NCBI RefSeq assembly: GCF_900109375.1 | Contig: NZ_FOAB01000006.1 | Coordinates: forward strand, 1-64,000 | Source of the DNA: Aquimarina amphilecti | GTDB taxonomy: Bacteria; Bacteroidota; Bacteroidia; Flavobacteriales; Flavobacteriaceae | Direction of reading: 5' to 3' | Length of the DNA stretch: 64,000 bases | Part shown: piece after piece, positions 17,285 through 61,079 of the stretch | Position numbering within the stretch: the stretch's first letter is position 1 | Layout: every line of letters starts with the position of its first letter | The notes under the pieces: model-generated | The model's input: the letters and a program-made list of their open reading frames with translations, nothing else | Database searches by the model: none | Told to the model about the DNA's origin: nothing | Program-made: the position numbers and the translations under genes

Positions 17285-17318
17285 AAAAAAAAGGCTTGTC
17301 GTGATTTGACAAGCCTTT
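17285..17318 (-). terminator. trp attenuator terminator
   Basis: On the minus strand an 11-bp perfect stem (AAAGGCTTGTC / GACAAGCCTTT) closes a 7-base loop and runs into a stretch of eight U residues. It lies between the leader peptide and trpE. The leader segment GTCGTGA (17359-17353) is perfectly complementary to TCACGAC (17304-17298), which covers the loop and the foot of the 3' arm. This provides an alternative pairing that should hinder the terminator. Confidence 0.88.
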
Positions 17319-17347
17319 GATATGTTTACTTAACTATATGACAGGAG

Positions 17348-17410
17348 CTATCTCACGACGTTTTCGTTATAAGATGACCACCACCACGTATTTGTTAAGA
17401 TTATATTCAT
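17348..17410 (-). CDS. trpL: trp operon leader peptide with three Trp codons
   Basis: This 20-codon ORF reads M-N-I-I-L-T-N-T-W-W-W-S-S-Y-N-E-N-V-V-R and then TAG. It lies between the promoter and the attenuator terminator of trpE. Three consecutive UGG codons are strong evidence for a ribosome-stalling leader: a stall there leaves the GTCGTGA segment about 20 bases downstream uncovered and able to disrupt the terminator. When charged tRNA-Trp is plentiful the ribosome reaches the stop codon and covers that segment, so the terminator forms. The mechanism is inferred from the classic trp attenuator; the layout is read directly from the sequence. Confidence 0.88.
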   Translation of the reverse strand: MNIILTNTWWWSSYNENVVR

Positions 17411-17427
17411 TTTAAAATTTCTTGAGT

Positions 17428-17458
17428 CAAATATATAAATTTATTATAATTCAAAAAA
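17428..17458 (-). promoter_or_regulatory. trp operon promoter
   Basis: On the minus strand TTTTTTG (17458-17452) is followed after 16 bases by TATATTTG (17435-17428), a good match to the Bacteroidetes -33/-7 promoter. It lies just after the yceI stop and about 18 bases before the leader ATG, so the transcript would start only about ten bases before trpL. Confidence 0.6.
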
Positions 17459-31234: not shown

Positions 31235-31271
31235 AATCCTGCCTAATGGCAGGATTGTAGTGGAGTCGGAG
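31136..31271. repeat. 13-bp direct repeat at the tmRNA 3' end
   Basis: AGTGGAGTCGGAG occurs at 31136-31148 and again at 31259-31271, where it forms the 3' end of the tmRNA (acceptor-stem strand). The copies are 123 bp apart. Duplicated tmRNA or tRNA 3' ends are the usual trace of site-specific integration, so these may be att half-sites left by a lost element. Confidence 0.5.
31235..31256 (-). terminator. tmRNA terminator
   Basis: On the minus strand a perfect 9-bp stem (AATCCTGCC / GGCAGGATT) with an ATTA loop is followed by TTCTGTTTT. It begins five bases after the tmRNA 3' end. Confidence 0.75.
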
Positions 31272-31655
31272 GGATTCGAACCCTCGTCCAAACAAGTAAT
31301 ACAATAGCTTTCTACACGCTTAGTCTTTGTTTAGATTTTCGTGGGATTGCCGGCCAAAAACCGCCAACGCACCCCTTATTCTCAATTGATTTCAAAACTA
31401 TATCAAGATCCTATAGTTTCTAGGTTTACTTTTACGATACTCAAAACCAAACGCCATAAACCAAGGCTTTTGAAGAGTATCCTGCTTGCTCACCTAGTGA
31501 GCCGAGGCATTATCCTACTATAATTCGGATTATGCAGCTAGGGCGTAGTTATTCTCGCCGTTTAAAAAAGGTGAAATATGATATTTACGAGCTATATCCC
31601 AGCGCTCGACGTGCTTACCACTCTATTAATCTCGCTGTCAAAACCAGTCGACCCC
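31261..31655 (-). ncRNA. ssrA: tmRNA
   Basis: tmRNA rescues stalled ribosomes and tags the unfinished protein. The 5' end GGGGTCG pairs with CGACTCC at the 3' end to make the acceptor stem, and the T-arm (GGGATTCGAATCCC-type, near 31266-31285) is clear. The tag ORF at 31559-31530 reads GGC GAG AAT AAC TAC GCC CTA GCT GCA TAA, that is GENNYALAA and stop. CCA is not encoded; the bases after the discriminator A are CTA. Pseudoknot segments are GC-rich blocks such as GCGGTTTTTGGCCGGC. The length of about 395 bases is typical. A 60-codon plus-strand frame inside it is not a gene. Confidence 0.97.
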
Positions 31656-57849: not shown

Positions 57850-57906
57850 GACCTATGGTTTAGGTATTTTGGCATAAGATTTGATATTATATAAGTGTAT
57901 AGAATT

Positions 57907-58002
57907 TATCAAAATCTTGTGTGAGGACATTGGTTCTGAGGAACTAAAGATAGTACGGGAAAAGGATAAGAAAAACGCTCGAGTAAAACTCTGAGCGTTT
58001 TT
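57907..58002 (+). ncRNA. Structured RNA family, copy 1
   Basis: The segment carries GTGTGAGGACATT (57919-57931), the hairpin GTTC-TGAG-GAAC (57933-57944) and CTAAAGATAGTACG (57944-57957). The outer segments TATC / GATA and TCTT / GGGA can pair as a basal stem. The rho-independent terminator AAAAACGCTC / GAGCGTTTTT (57971-57980 / 57993-58002) follows. Compared with copies 2 and 3, hairpin bases differ but pairing is kept. It lies 58 bases after the symporter stop and 42 before the mscS start, so it could be an independent RNA, a 3' UTR product or an attenuator. Confidence 0.7.
57971..58002 (+). terminator. Terminator of RNA copy 1 / symporter gene
   Basis: A perfect 10-bp stem (AAAAACGCTC / GAGCGTTTTT) with a 12-base loop is followed by TTT. 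Confidence 0.85.
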
Positions 58003-58043
58003 TTATTTTATTTTTCTATTTTAGAGATTATAAAAATCTAACC

Positions 58044-58862
58044 ATGGAAAAATTATACGAATATTTTGAAATAGCCATTGATAAAGTTGTTTTTTTTGCT
58101 CCAAGAATTATTGGAGCCGCTTTGGTATTTTGGATAGGGTTTAAAATTATCAAAAAAATACTACAACTTTTAGATAAGACATTAGAGAAAACAGGCATTT
58201 CAGATACGATGCGTCCTTTTCTGTTATCAATTATATCAGTAATTCTAAAAATAGCGGTCATTTTTGCAATCGTTACAATTCTAGGAGTAGATCTATCCGG
58301 TTTATTAGCTATTCTTGCTGCAGTTGGATTTGCTATAGGAATGTCTTTGCAAGGTAGTTTAGGTAATTTTGCTTCAGGGATTTTAATTATGTTCCTAAAG
58401 CCGTATGAAGCTGGAGATTGGATTCAGGTTGGTGATTCCTTTGGAAAAGTAGAGGAAATAGGTATTTTTAGTACTGTAGTGATAACTCCAGGAGATAAGG
58501 TTCTAATTATTCCTAATGCTAAAATAACCGATGATGTTGTTGCGAATTATTCCAAAAAAGGAGTTGTAAGATTAGAGATTGGTGTTACGATGCCTTATAA
58601 TGAAGATTTTTCAAAAGTCAAACGAGTAATTGAAAATGCAATAGCGCCAATCGATAAAATTCTGGATAACCCTAAAACAGAAATAGGGATCGAAAATTTC
58701 GATTCTCATAATATTTTAATAGCTGTTAGACCTTATGTAAAGCCTGATGATTTTTGGGAGGTAACTTTTATGACTCATCAAGAGATTAAAAAAGCTTTTA
58801 GTGAGCACGATATAAAAGTGGCATACTCAGAAGGTGTAGAATTGGGAAGCATTGGAGTATAA
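58044..58862 (+). CDS. MscS-type mechanosensitive channel
   Basis: The protein has 272 residues and the small, E. coli MscS-like architecture: three N-terminal helices, with the pore helix LAAVGFAIGMSLQGSLGNFASG (about residues 91-112) containing the Gly/Ala-rich packing face. The beta domain follows (AGDWIQVGDSFGKVEEIGIF, VLIIPNAKITDDVVANYSKKG) and then the C-terminal alpha/beta domain. It releases solutes after osmotic down-shock. It lies downstream of structured RNA copy 1 and its terminator; whether that RNA acts on it is not known. Confidence 0.95.
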   Translation: MEKLYEYFEIAIDKVVFFAPRIIGAALVFWIGFKIIKKILQLLDKTLEKTGISDTMRPFLLSIISVILKIAVIFAIVTILGVDLSGLLAILAAVGFAIGMSLQGSLGNFASGILIMFLKPYEAGDWIQVGDSFGKVEEIGIFSTVVITPGDKVLIIPNAKITDDVVANYSKKGVVRLEIGVTMPYNEDFSKVKRVIENAIAPIDKILDNPKTEIGIENFDSHNILIAVRPYVKPDDFWEVTFMTHQEIKKAFSEHDIKVAYSEGVELGSIGV

Positions 58863-58942
58863 TTTATAAACACATGTTTTATACAAAAATAGTGTAAGTG
58901 GCATTTTTTTTGTAGCTATTATTTTAGTTAAAATTTTCACCT

Positions 58943-60361
58943 ATGAAATTCATCTCTATCCGGAGCATACTATTTTTTGTATTTATATGCTCTATAACGT
59001 GTTCTTATTCGCAAAATACTTTAAGACTTAAAAAAGGTGAGGTTATAGATTCTCTTAAAGTGCCTTCGAGTAAAGGGATTTATAGTATCTATTTACCAAA
59101 ATCATTTGATCTAAATAGCGGGTGGCCAGTACTTTTTGGATTTGATAGTGCCAGGAATCAAAACGCTCTTACGAACACTTTTAAGAAATCTGCAGAAGAG
59201 TTTGGGTATATAGTAGTGGTTTCTGATTATGGAGAAAGCCTTAGTTCTGAGGATAAATCGAGTTATATATCACTTTTTATCAAACATATTGTTTCTCTTT
59301 TTCCAATTCAGAATAAAAGAATGTATGTTTTTGGGACAGGAAAAGATGCTCCGCTTAATACTTCTCTACCTTTATTATATGAGCAATTTGAAGGTGTAAT
59401 AGCGATAGGTAATAGTTATAATTATAGTCAAAAGTTGAATCGAAATAATTACTTCTCTTACGTTGGAATGGTTGGAAATAAGAATTTTAGATCTTTAGAT
59501 TTTGAGGATACCAATAAATATCTTAGAAAAAAAGGTGCAGTTTCAGAAGTTTATGTTTTCAATGGTAATGAAGAGCTCCCGCCTCCAAATATAATAGCAA
59601 AAGCTTTACCACATTTTACAATGGCTGCAATGGCAAAAGGAACTATTCCTAAGGATTCCATTTGGATAGAAAACAGATATCAAAAAGATCGAGAATTAGT
59701 TTCTTTATTGAAAGAAGAAAAAAAGTATCTACAGGCTTATGATGAGTTAACTAAAATGAGAAGTAGGTATCGATTATTTCTTAATGTGGATAATCTTAAA
59801 GAAGAGCAGAAGGAAATTAGAAAAGTTGATGACTACAAAAAAGAAAGAAGATTAAGATCAAAATACCAAAATCAGGAAATATTTTTAAGACAATCATTAT
59901 TTTTTTCTATGGAAGAAGACATAGAGCTTAATCAATATGGCAATCTTGGATGGTGGCAATATAAGATTGGTGAACTAGAAAAGATACATAAGAATAAGGA
60001 GATATATGCCAGTAATATGGTAATAAGAATAAAAGGTTTTCTGAAAAACGTTTTGTCGGATTATAAAAAAGAAGTTATTAATTATAAAAAGGAAGAAGAC
60101 AGAAAAATATTCTTAAATATATTAAGTACAATAGTTGATAAAAATGATTTTGAATCCTATCGTAATATTATTTCATTAAGCACAATAGATAATGATAACG
60201 AAACAGCGTTGTTTTATTTAGAAAAGATGCTTCAGCAAGGATATAAGGATATTGATAAGCTTTATGCTATCGAAGGAACTTTAGCATTGAGGGTTTCAAA
60301 AGAATATAATGGTATTATCAAACAATATTTGGGGACTTCAAAGTATTTCAATTTTGACTAA
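58943..60361 (+). CDS. Exported hydrolase-like protein lacking catalytic residues
   Basis: The protein has 472 residues with a signal peptide (ending SITCSYSQ). It is a clear paralogue of the product of 52856-54031: EVIDSLKVPSSKGIYSIYLPK matches IIDSILVSDKNKETFAMYLPS in position, and the EFGYIVVVSDYG, NYFSYVGMVGNKN and GWWQYKIGELEKI blocks also match. But the nucleophile elbow has become FGTGKDAP instead of SGFSGGS, and the His segment YDGNHSW has become FNGNEEL. So the usual Ser and His are absent. It is probably a pseudo-enzyme with a binding or regulatory role. The helical C-terminal part is longer than in the paralogue. Confidence 0.75.
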   Translation: MKFISIRSILFFVFICSITCSYSQNTLRLKKGEVIDSLKVPSSKGIYSIYLPKSFDLNSGWPVLFGFDSARNQNALTNTFKKSAEEFGYIVVVSDYGESLSSEDKSSYISLFIKHIVSLFPIQNKRMYVFGTGKDAPLNTSLPLLYEQFEGVIAIGNSYNYSQKLNRNNYFSYVGMVGNKNFRSLDFEDTNKYLRKKGAVSEVYVFNGNEELPPPNIIAKALPHFTMAAMAKGTIPKDSIWIENRYQKDRELVSLLKEEKKYLQAYDELTKMRSRYRLFLNVDNLKEEQKEIRKVDDYKKERRLRSKYQNQEIFLRQSLFFSMEEDIELNQYGNLGWWQYKIGELEKIHKNKEIYASNMVIRIKGFLKNVLSDYKKEVINYKKEEDRKIFLNILSTIVDKNDFESYRNIISLSTIDNDNETALFYLEKMLQQGYKDIDKLYAIEGTLALRVSKEYNGIIKQYLGTSKYFNFD

Positions 60362-60521
60362 AACATAAGTTATTACGCACTTTAACGATAGTAATAAACA
60401 CTTAATCGATATTTTGTTAATAACTTTTTTTTGAATTACGGTTTTGAAGTAAAAATTCATATATCTTTATAACACGTAAAATATGAACGGTGTGTATTGT
60501 AGAAATTAACATATCAAGAAA

Positions 60522-60557
60522 TATGACGATATGGATTTGAAATTTTAATTTGGAATA
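60522..60557 (+). promoter_or_regulatory. Promoter-like block upstream of RNA copy 2
   Basis: This 36-base block (TATGACGATATGGATTT... ending TGGAATA) is repeated at 60904-60939 with only two differences. It contains TTAATTTGG, which resembles the Bacteroidetes -7 box. Nine bases upstream both copies also share AATTAACAT. Transcription would start roughly at the RNA basal stem. Confidence 0.5.
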
Positions 60558-60563
60558 TGCATT

Positions 60564-60672
60564 GGGATAAATTAAGTGTGAGGACATTAGTCTAAAGACC
60601 CCGAATCTAAAAACTAAAGAGAGTACGTAATTTGCCCCGTATGAAAAAGCGATCTTGAAAAAGATCGCTTTT
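60564..60672 (+). ncRNA. Structured RNA family, copy 2
   Basis: The RNA begins with the 5' basal strand GGGATAAATTA (60564-60574), which pairs with TAATTTGCCCC (60628-60638) at 10 of 11 positions. Inside are GTGTGAGGACATTAG (60576-60590), a hairpin with GTC / GAC and a TAAA loop, and CTAAAGAGAGTACG (60614-60627). The terminator AAAAGCGATCTT / AAGATCGCTTTT with a GAAA loop ends it at 60672. No ORF overlaps it. It sits alone in a 718-base gap, so it is most simply a free small RNA of roughly 110 bases. Confidence 0.78.
60645..60672 (+). terminator. Terminator of RNA copy 2
   Basis: A perfect 12-bp stem with a GAAA tetraloop is followed by TCTTTTTT. Confidence 0.88.
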
Positions 60673-60903
60673 CTTTTTTAACAGATTTTTTTAAAAGGAT
60701 AAAGGGGGAGAATTACTGTGTAAAATAAAACTTTAATCAGTTTTTATTGATGACAAAACCTTTGATAAATACATTTTTTGTGTATTTCATCGATTTTTAT
60801 TGTTTTTTATCGTTAAAAATTTTGTGTTAACAATTTTTTTACAATATATTTACGTGTGCTTAAAAACATTTCGATGTATGGCCAGAATTAACATTTTAAA
60901 TTG

Positions 60904-60939
60904 TATGACGATATGGATTTAAAATTTTAGTTTGGAATA
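60904..60939 (+). promoter_or_regulatory. Promoter-like block upstream of RNA copy 3
   Basis: Identical to the block at 60522-60557 at 34 of 36 positions, with TTAGTTTGG in the -7-like position and the same AATTAACAT nine bases upstream. The conserved placement suggests a shared promoter and possibly shared control. Confidence 0.5.
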
Positions 60940-60943
60940 CATC

Positions 60944-61055
60944 AGGGCCTATTAGGTGTGAGGACATTAGTCTGAAAGACCCCAAATCTTGAAGCTAAAG
61001 AGAGTACGTAATTAGCCCTAAAATTGATGAAAGCGTTCCTTAGTAGGAGCGCTTT
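60944..61055 (+). ncRNA. Structured RNA family, copy 3
   Basis: The basal stem is AGGGC (60944-60948) with GCCCT (61015-61019), and ATTA (60951-60954) with TAAT (61009-61012). The core has GTGTGAGGACATTAG (60956-60970), the hairpin GTCT-GAA-AGAC (60970-60980) and CTAAAGAGAGTACG (60995-61008). The terminator AAAGCGTTCCT / AGGAGCGCTTT (61030-61040 / 61045-61055, one G-U pair) ends it. The next gene is on the opposite strand, so this copy cannot be a leader of a downstream gene. Confidence 0.78.
61030..61055 (+). terminator. Terminator of RNA copy 3
   Basis: An 11-bp stem with one G-U pair and a TAGT loop is followed by TATATTTTTT. It may also serve the convergent DJ-1/PfpI gene on the minus strand. 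Confidence 0.8.
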
Positions 61056-61079
61056 TATATTTTTTGTGATGATCTATAA

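Follow-up and report, generated by a model that had tools for sequence, protein, structure and literature searches.

Three related sequences in Aquimarina amphilecti

The first 64,000 nucleotides (nt) of contig NZ_FOAB01000006.1 of Aquimarina amphilecti (assembly GCF_900109375.1), the whole of which we refer to as the window, carry on their forward strand three copies of a short element. These copies are very probably genes for small, folded RNAs belonging to one Flavobacteriaceae family. A three-copy family sharing two sequence blocks had been predicted from the letters of the window, and an exact pattern search bears this out: the block pair GTGTGAGGACATT and CTAAAGANAGTACG has exactly three occurrences in the whole genome of 5.31 Mb, all in the window (57919-57957, 60576-60627 and 60956-61008, all +), and the reversed pattern used as a control has no match in the same genome. 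These exact matches, which take in both blocks, mark the cores of copies 1, 2 and 3. Scanning the whole genome with the model R1, described below, returned the same three copies and no others.

Copy 1 is flanked by the genes for a sodium:alanine symporter and an MscS-type channel. Upstream of it a sigma54-like -24/-12 element, TGGCATAAGATTTG, is placed by its pattern position at 57870-57883 (+), and the predicted RNA, a short form of ~110 nt, would run from 57893 to 58004 (+), its start being set from the -12 element. The models R1 and R2 match this copy at 57905-57971 and 57912-57963 (+), and a terminator-like hairpin at 57969-58004 (+) is followed after 40 nt by the MscS-type gene. Copies 2 and 3 stand in tandem, after an open reading frame (ORF) of 472 amino acids without a Pfam match and facing a DJ-1/PfpI gene. 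Both are predicted to give long-form RNAs of ~200 nt, at 60475-60677 and 60857-61060 (+), with R1 matches at 60562-60641 and 60943-61022, 5' hairpins with a GACG loop (H1) at 60488-60564 and 60873-60943 (+), and terminator-like hairpins at 60645-60672 and 61027-61058 (+). For copy 3, a promoter-pair pattern identified a primary-sigma-like promoter at 60820-60852 (+), with TTTTG at 60820-60824 and TATATTTA at 60845-60852. For copy 2, we read by eye a possible weak promoter of this kind at 60442-60469 (+), TTTTG and then TATCTTTA (60462-60469), the spacing of which is outside the tested pattern, so that it was scored as a miss. The original prediction had correctly ended each copy in a terminator; it had begun copies 2 and 3 too late, since the starts we predict are some 70-90 nt further upstream and take in H1, a second conserved hairpin.

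Comparative evidence for the core fold

Comparison of the copies reveals a core of stem, conserved internal loop and stem, followed by a terminator and occurring in two forms with different upstream elements. From its base, the core is made up of the basal stem P1, inner GUG/UAC pairs, the internal loop UGAGGACA/AGRNAG, a UUAG/CUAA stem and a variable apical loop. Model R1 was built from 27 distinct Aquimarina sequences that were gathered by sequence pattern alone (21 of the 56 genomes searched). In the alignment of these sequences 82.6% of cells are paired, compared to 37-49% when the partners are slid (maximum 48.8%), and the covariation score of 0.238, compared to 0.135 for shuffled alignments, was reached by 0 of 500 shuffles. 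Nine pairs show two-sided changes (shuffled mean 7.1; 7 of 500 shuffles), and the basal-stem changes AGGGC/GCCCT and GGGAT/GCCC, which had been pointed out beforehand, are present in the sequence. MAFFT, run without structure on 63 diverse copies, gave a second alignment with 86.3% of cells paired (maximum 47.6% slid) and two-sided changes in 13 of 16 pairs (shuffled mean 9.9; 2 of 500 shuffles), pair counts that lean toward the structure because some of the rows were found with a model already holding it. Covariation is thus present in both of the larger alignments.

The two blocks had been described as single-stranded and near-invariant. This is right for their middle, which forms the internal loop, but their ends pair with each other, GUG with UAC on the outside and UUAG with CUAA on the inside. 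In other genera the inner P1 pairs GUG/UAC are replaced by GUA/UAC and GCA/UGC, indicating that this part of the blocks is helical. The unpaired remainder consists of UGAGGACA opposite AGRNAG, in which 9 of the 14 loop letters are invariant across all 63 rows. Compensated changes accumulate in the stems, whereas the internal loop is nearly fixed, as is characteristic of a binding site. The tertiary motifs loop E and k-turn, judged by eye only, did not fit.

The small GTC(T)/(A)GAC hairpin that had also been proposed for copies 2 and 3 is weakly supported. Its 64.6% of paired cells exceed the shuffled value of 58.4% (0 of 500) and the slid maximum of 51.9%, but its covariation score was matched by 72 of 500 shuffles and its two-sided changes are no more than in shuffled alignments.

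The tandem arrangement of copies 2 and 3 could also be that of repeat DNA or a mobile element rather than of an RNA. We find this hardly credible, given that there are only three copies, that the covariation includes G-U pairs, and that the copies have terminators and occur in many genera in differing gene contexts. Covariation, terminators and a spread over ~20 genera together indicate a real, selected RNA family and not a coding or mobile repeat, in line with the original prediction, and the support for a structured RNA is comparative, not thermodynamic.

Two forms with different upstream elements

We divided the 142 copies that have 100 nt or more of upstream sequence by the length of their R2 match, calling those below 62 nt short (62 copies) and the others long (80 copies). 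The short form, to which copy 1 belongs, is the usual form in other genera, and the long form, to which copies 2 and 3 belong, is found mainly in Aquimarina. A sigma54-like pattern (TGGYA[CTA]-N5-YTG, with the spacing of sigma54 -24/-12 elements) is present upstream of 54 of the 62 short copies, compared to 0 of the 80 long copies, although many copies are related by descent and the 54 elements are therefore not 54 independent events. The same pattern occurs 13 times on the two strands of the window, copy 1's element included, so that about 1 in 100 stretches of 130 nt would carry it by chance. It was found at all 38 short copies that are Aquimarina or like it and at 16 of 24 from other genera, and its distance to the core varies from 26 to 48 nt. 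The -12 box of sigma54 promoters has the consensus TTGC, in place of which copy 1 reads TTGA. The element of copy 1 has the canonical spacing and rpoN is encoded in this genome, the combination expected in sequence of a sigma54-dependent small RNA (sRNA).

Most long copies carry, immediately 5' of the core, a hairpin of 70-75 nt with a GACG loop, which in copies 2 and 3 (H1) has fold z values of -3.05 and -5.49. In 52 rows, a chosen subset of the long-copy upstream stretches that supports H1 by covariation, 91.9% of the cells of this hairpin are paired (maximum 47.1% slid) and 15 of 30 pairs show two-sided changes (shuffled mean 5.8). One of its pairs appears as G-C, G-U, A-U, U-A and U-G across 65 rows and is never broken. 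Upstream of the hairpin, a promoter-like pair TTG-N16-21-TAnnTTTR is present in 42 of 52 long copies, copy 3 among them, compared to 41 of 1040 shuffled stretches. Two distinct kinds of promoter apparently drive the family.

We also considered whether the palindrome upstream of the long form is a DNA operator. This is disfavoured because many of its pairs are G-U or compensated and because the promoter-like pair lies upstream of the palindrome in those 42 of 52 copies. At four loci (L201, L179, L214 and L208) long copies have other upstream sequence in place of the GACG hairpin.

Distribution of the family

R1 matches 42 of 52 Aquimarina genomes (expectation value (E) up to 0.1), mostly with 2-4 copies each, and 12 of 397 genomes of Flavobacteriaceae. 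With E up to 0.01, R2 matches 28 of the 397 Flavobacteriaceae genomes, which belong to 20 of 237 genera; in two of these genomes the match is weak (E 0.003 and 0.009). In a sample of the phylum R2 matched 2 of 296 genomes, namely this one and a Flavobacteriaceae genome already found. Strict filters were used in searches over 40 genomes, and the family counts are therefore lower bounds. An exact-pattern scan of a genome collection of 84,980 species gave 97 stretches, of which R2 matches 94 (E up to 0.01), although its matches to three of them, from Pedobacter and from metagenome-assembled genomes (MAGs) of Porphyromonadaceae and Methanosarcina, are weak and probably due to chance. The other 91 loci come from Aquimarina, Maribacter, Zobellia, Eudoraea, Robiginitalea, Kordia, Cellulophaga, Euzebyella and further Flavobacteriaceae, with one 'Bacteroidia bacterium' MAG and one 'Cytophaga sp. 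FL35'. In this last (L211) the sequence upstream of the RNA is near-identical to that of Euzebyella saccharophila (L194), and the strain is perhaps misnamed. At another locus (L112, 6669-6745, +) a weak match that lacks GGACATT and lies next to intact copies looks like a decayed extra copy.

Terminators and neighbouring genes

A terminator-like hairpin is found 3' of 128 of 141 distinct copies, compared to 67 of 2000 random stretches. For the same 141 copies we recorded the next mechanically called ORF of at least 100 amino acids; 16 copies had no such ORF in the locus and 3 overlapped one. Among the scored neighbours, the next ORF is convergent at 68 of 72 long copies and 24 of 50 short copies, and on the same strand at 4 of 72 and 26 of 50, respectively. 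In other genera it is convergent at 20 of 22 scored copies, with 2 more overlapping an ORF. The downstream genes are mixed (MscS, a 473-amino-acid protein, convergent oxygenase or DJ-1/PfpI genes), and in five genomes, one of which was analysed with Pfam, the RNA has on one side a gene that clusters with an S1/P1 nuclease and on the other a convergent gene that clusters with a 2OG-Fe(II) oxygenase. There is no gene that the RNA always precedes, an argument for action in trans.

These data bear directly on whether the element is a cis-acting attenuator or orphan riboswitch, whose internal loop would bind a metabolite while the adjoining terminator gates the next gene. A small near-invariant internal loop between variable stems is aptamer-like, the terminator directly adjoins the core, and both the MscS-type gene just past copy 1 and the same-strand ORFs at about half of the scored short copies would suit such a role. 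We nevertheless regard it as unlikely, since the next ORF is convergent at nearly all long copies and nearly all scored copies of other genera, and the genes downstream are of differing kinds. A consistent same-strand gene downstream, as a cis-acting element would have, was not found among the scored copies, less clearly so for the short copies of Aquimarina.

Candidate partners and targets

The genome has no match to CsrA (PF02599) or Hfq (PF17209), compared to matches in 3 and 5 of 14 control genomes, respectively, and the RapZ C-domain was likewise not found in it, while control genomes match. Because they are absent from this genome, all three were rejected as partners, and the encoded partner that marks a CsrB/RsmZ-type CsrA sponge or an Hfq-dependent sRNA is lacking here.

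The conserved blocks are long and purine-rich, and they could themselves pair with mRNAs as in an antisense sRNA. A genome search for antisense 13-mers with at most one mismatch gave 7 sites for block 1 (3 of them the copies) compared to 10 for the reversed control, and 3 for the long-form loop (1 of them a copy) compared to 5; it covered 13-mers of block 1 and the long-form loop, and shorter seeds and block 2 were not searched. There is thus no excess of complementary 13-mers for these two elements. Furthermore, both strands of the internal loop are conserved together, a better fit to a folded binding site, and we consider antisense action by the blocks rather improbable.

The apical loops differ between the two forms. 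In Aquimarina, GGG is present in 18 of 30 distinct short-form loops (shuffled mean 3.2) and CCC in 49 of 60 distinct long-form loops (shuffled mean 9.4), and in other genera CCC is present in 23 of 37 loops (shuffled mean 10.4). The complementarity score between short and long loops is 10.8, compared to 9.0 for letter-shuffled loops (maximum 9.8; 33 loop sets). GlmY and GlmZ form a decoy pair, and the two Aquimarina forms could work similarly, the short form titrating the partner of the long form or binding the long form itself through the G-rich and C-rich loops. Two homologous RNAs with a common core and different promoter elements would fit such a pair, as would the loop composition and complementarity. 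However, 4391 of 5000 permutations among genomes do as well, and because the complementarity is no higher within than between genomes a sponge pair is unproven. The loop of copy 1, the short copy of the window, has no GGG, the RapZ C-domain is missing from this genome, and only 1 of 25 copies from other genera counts as long, so that most of these would have no such pair. A decoy pair is therefore in our estimate quite improbable.

Relation to known RNAs

A search of Rfam 15 (4227 models) at the gathering score gave no family over the copies and none at ten loci of relatives. Within the window it matched only a tmRNA gene at 31258-31655 (-; RF00023, 140.7 bits) and a Bacteroid-trp leader at 17308-17430 (-; RF01692, 64.6 bits), both elsewhere. 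At E up to 5 there were seven sub-threshold chance matches (E 0.53 to 3.6), none reaching the gathering score. The view that this is no known riboswitch thus stands. The accompanying guess of Flavo-1 (RF01705), like this family a flavobacterial structured-RNA candidate, does not: it gave no match in the window or at the ten loci at the gathering score, and none at the copies at E up to 5, where its inclusion in the model set is assumed from the accession given in the source (PMC2864571).

We found no report of this RNA family in the open-licence literature. The family is new and its kind, a stand-alone structured sRNA, is ordinary, with two published RNAs, Rfp18 and GUCCY-hairpin, compared by description only. 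GlmY of E. coli and Qrr of Vibrio are sigma54-dependent sRNAs that work with Hfq and/or RapZ, and they too are short stand-alone genes, present in several related copies, that combine a -24/-12 promoter with a terminator. They differ in coming from another phylum and in their partners, Hfq and the RapZ C-domain not being found here, and we know of no sequence shared with them. Within the same bacterial family, Rfp18 of Flavobacterium psychrophilum is a structured, conserved sRNA, described in the abstract of its report as widely conserved in Flavobacterium (PMC9723704), whereas 0 of our 97 pattern loci are titled Flavobacterium. GUCCY-hairpin is a Bacteroidetes candidate of 2010 without an Rfam number, its RNA status marked '?' in a table of the source (PMC2864571); the complement of one of our blocks contains GUCCU.

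A proposed trans-acting regulatory RNA

Our favoured explanation, which we hold to be somewhat more probable than even, is that the three copies are genes of one stand-alone, trans-acting regulatory RNA family. Both forms would be transcribed and released at their own terminators. The internal loop UGAGGACA/AGRNAG would be a protein recognition site, a small ligand being less likely, and not an antisense site. Target RNAs would be contacted by the variable apical loop, which is rich in C in the long form and also in many other genera. In F. psychrophilum, sigma54 -24/-12 promoters are reported for protein-quality-control, envelope-stress and gliding genes, with some induction at high osmotic pressure (PMC9723704). 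By analogy, the sigma54 short form might add to the dose of the RNA under envelope or osmotic stress.

Several observations weigh against this explanation. The transcripts, their starts and the contact with targets are predictions from sequence, and the known partners are missing. Single-sequence folds of the core have z values of -2.31, -0.62 and -1.61 (copies 1, 2 and 3), little beyond shuffles, 'further pair types' in the 27-sequence alignment are not above shuffles (361 of 500), and the 63-row counts carry the bias described above. More distant, later R2 matches differ in the loop (GAGGAAA, GAGGAGA, GCGAGG). The GACG motif is absent from 10 of 81 distinct long-copy upstream stretches; four of these still fold into a long hairpin, whereas about six fold into none of this kind. 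The primary-sigma pattern is lacking at 10 of 52 long copies, including copy 2, and the 8 short copies that lack the strict sigma54 pattern all come from other genera (8 of 24). Finally, 26 of the 50 scored short copies, 24 of them Aquimarina or like it, have a same-strand next ORF, so that an attenuator role could still apply to these 26.

Under the trans-acting explanation, we speculate that the UGAGGACA/AGRNAG loop might be recognised by a novel RNA-binding protein, a post-transcriptional regulator of marine Flavobacteriaceae for which the sigma54-driven short RNA would be the stress ligand and the housekeeping long RNA the basal ligand. This is a tentative idea with a low probability, and the absence of Hfq and CsrA behind it is that of one genome. 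Since Hfq and CsrA are lacking here, the near-invariant internal loop would be a ready bait in the search for RNA-binding proteins of Bacteroidota, and further searches can draw on the covariance model. A phylum with few known RNA families thereby gains a well-supported one, in which a single core under two kinds of promoter offers a built-in handle.

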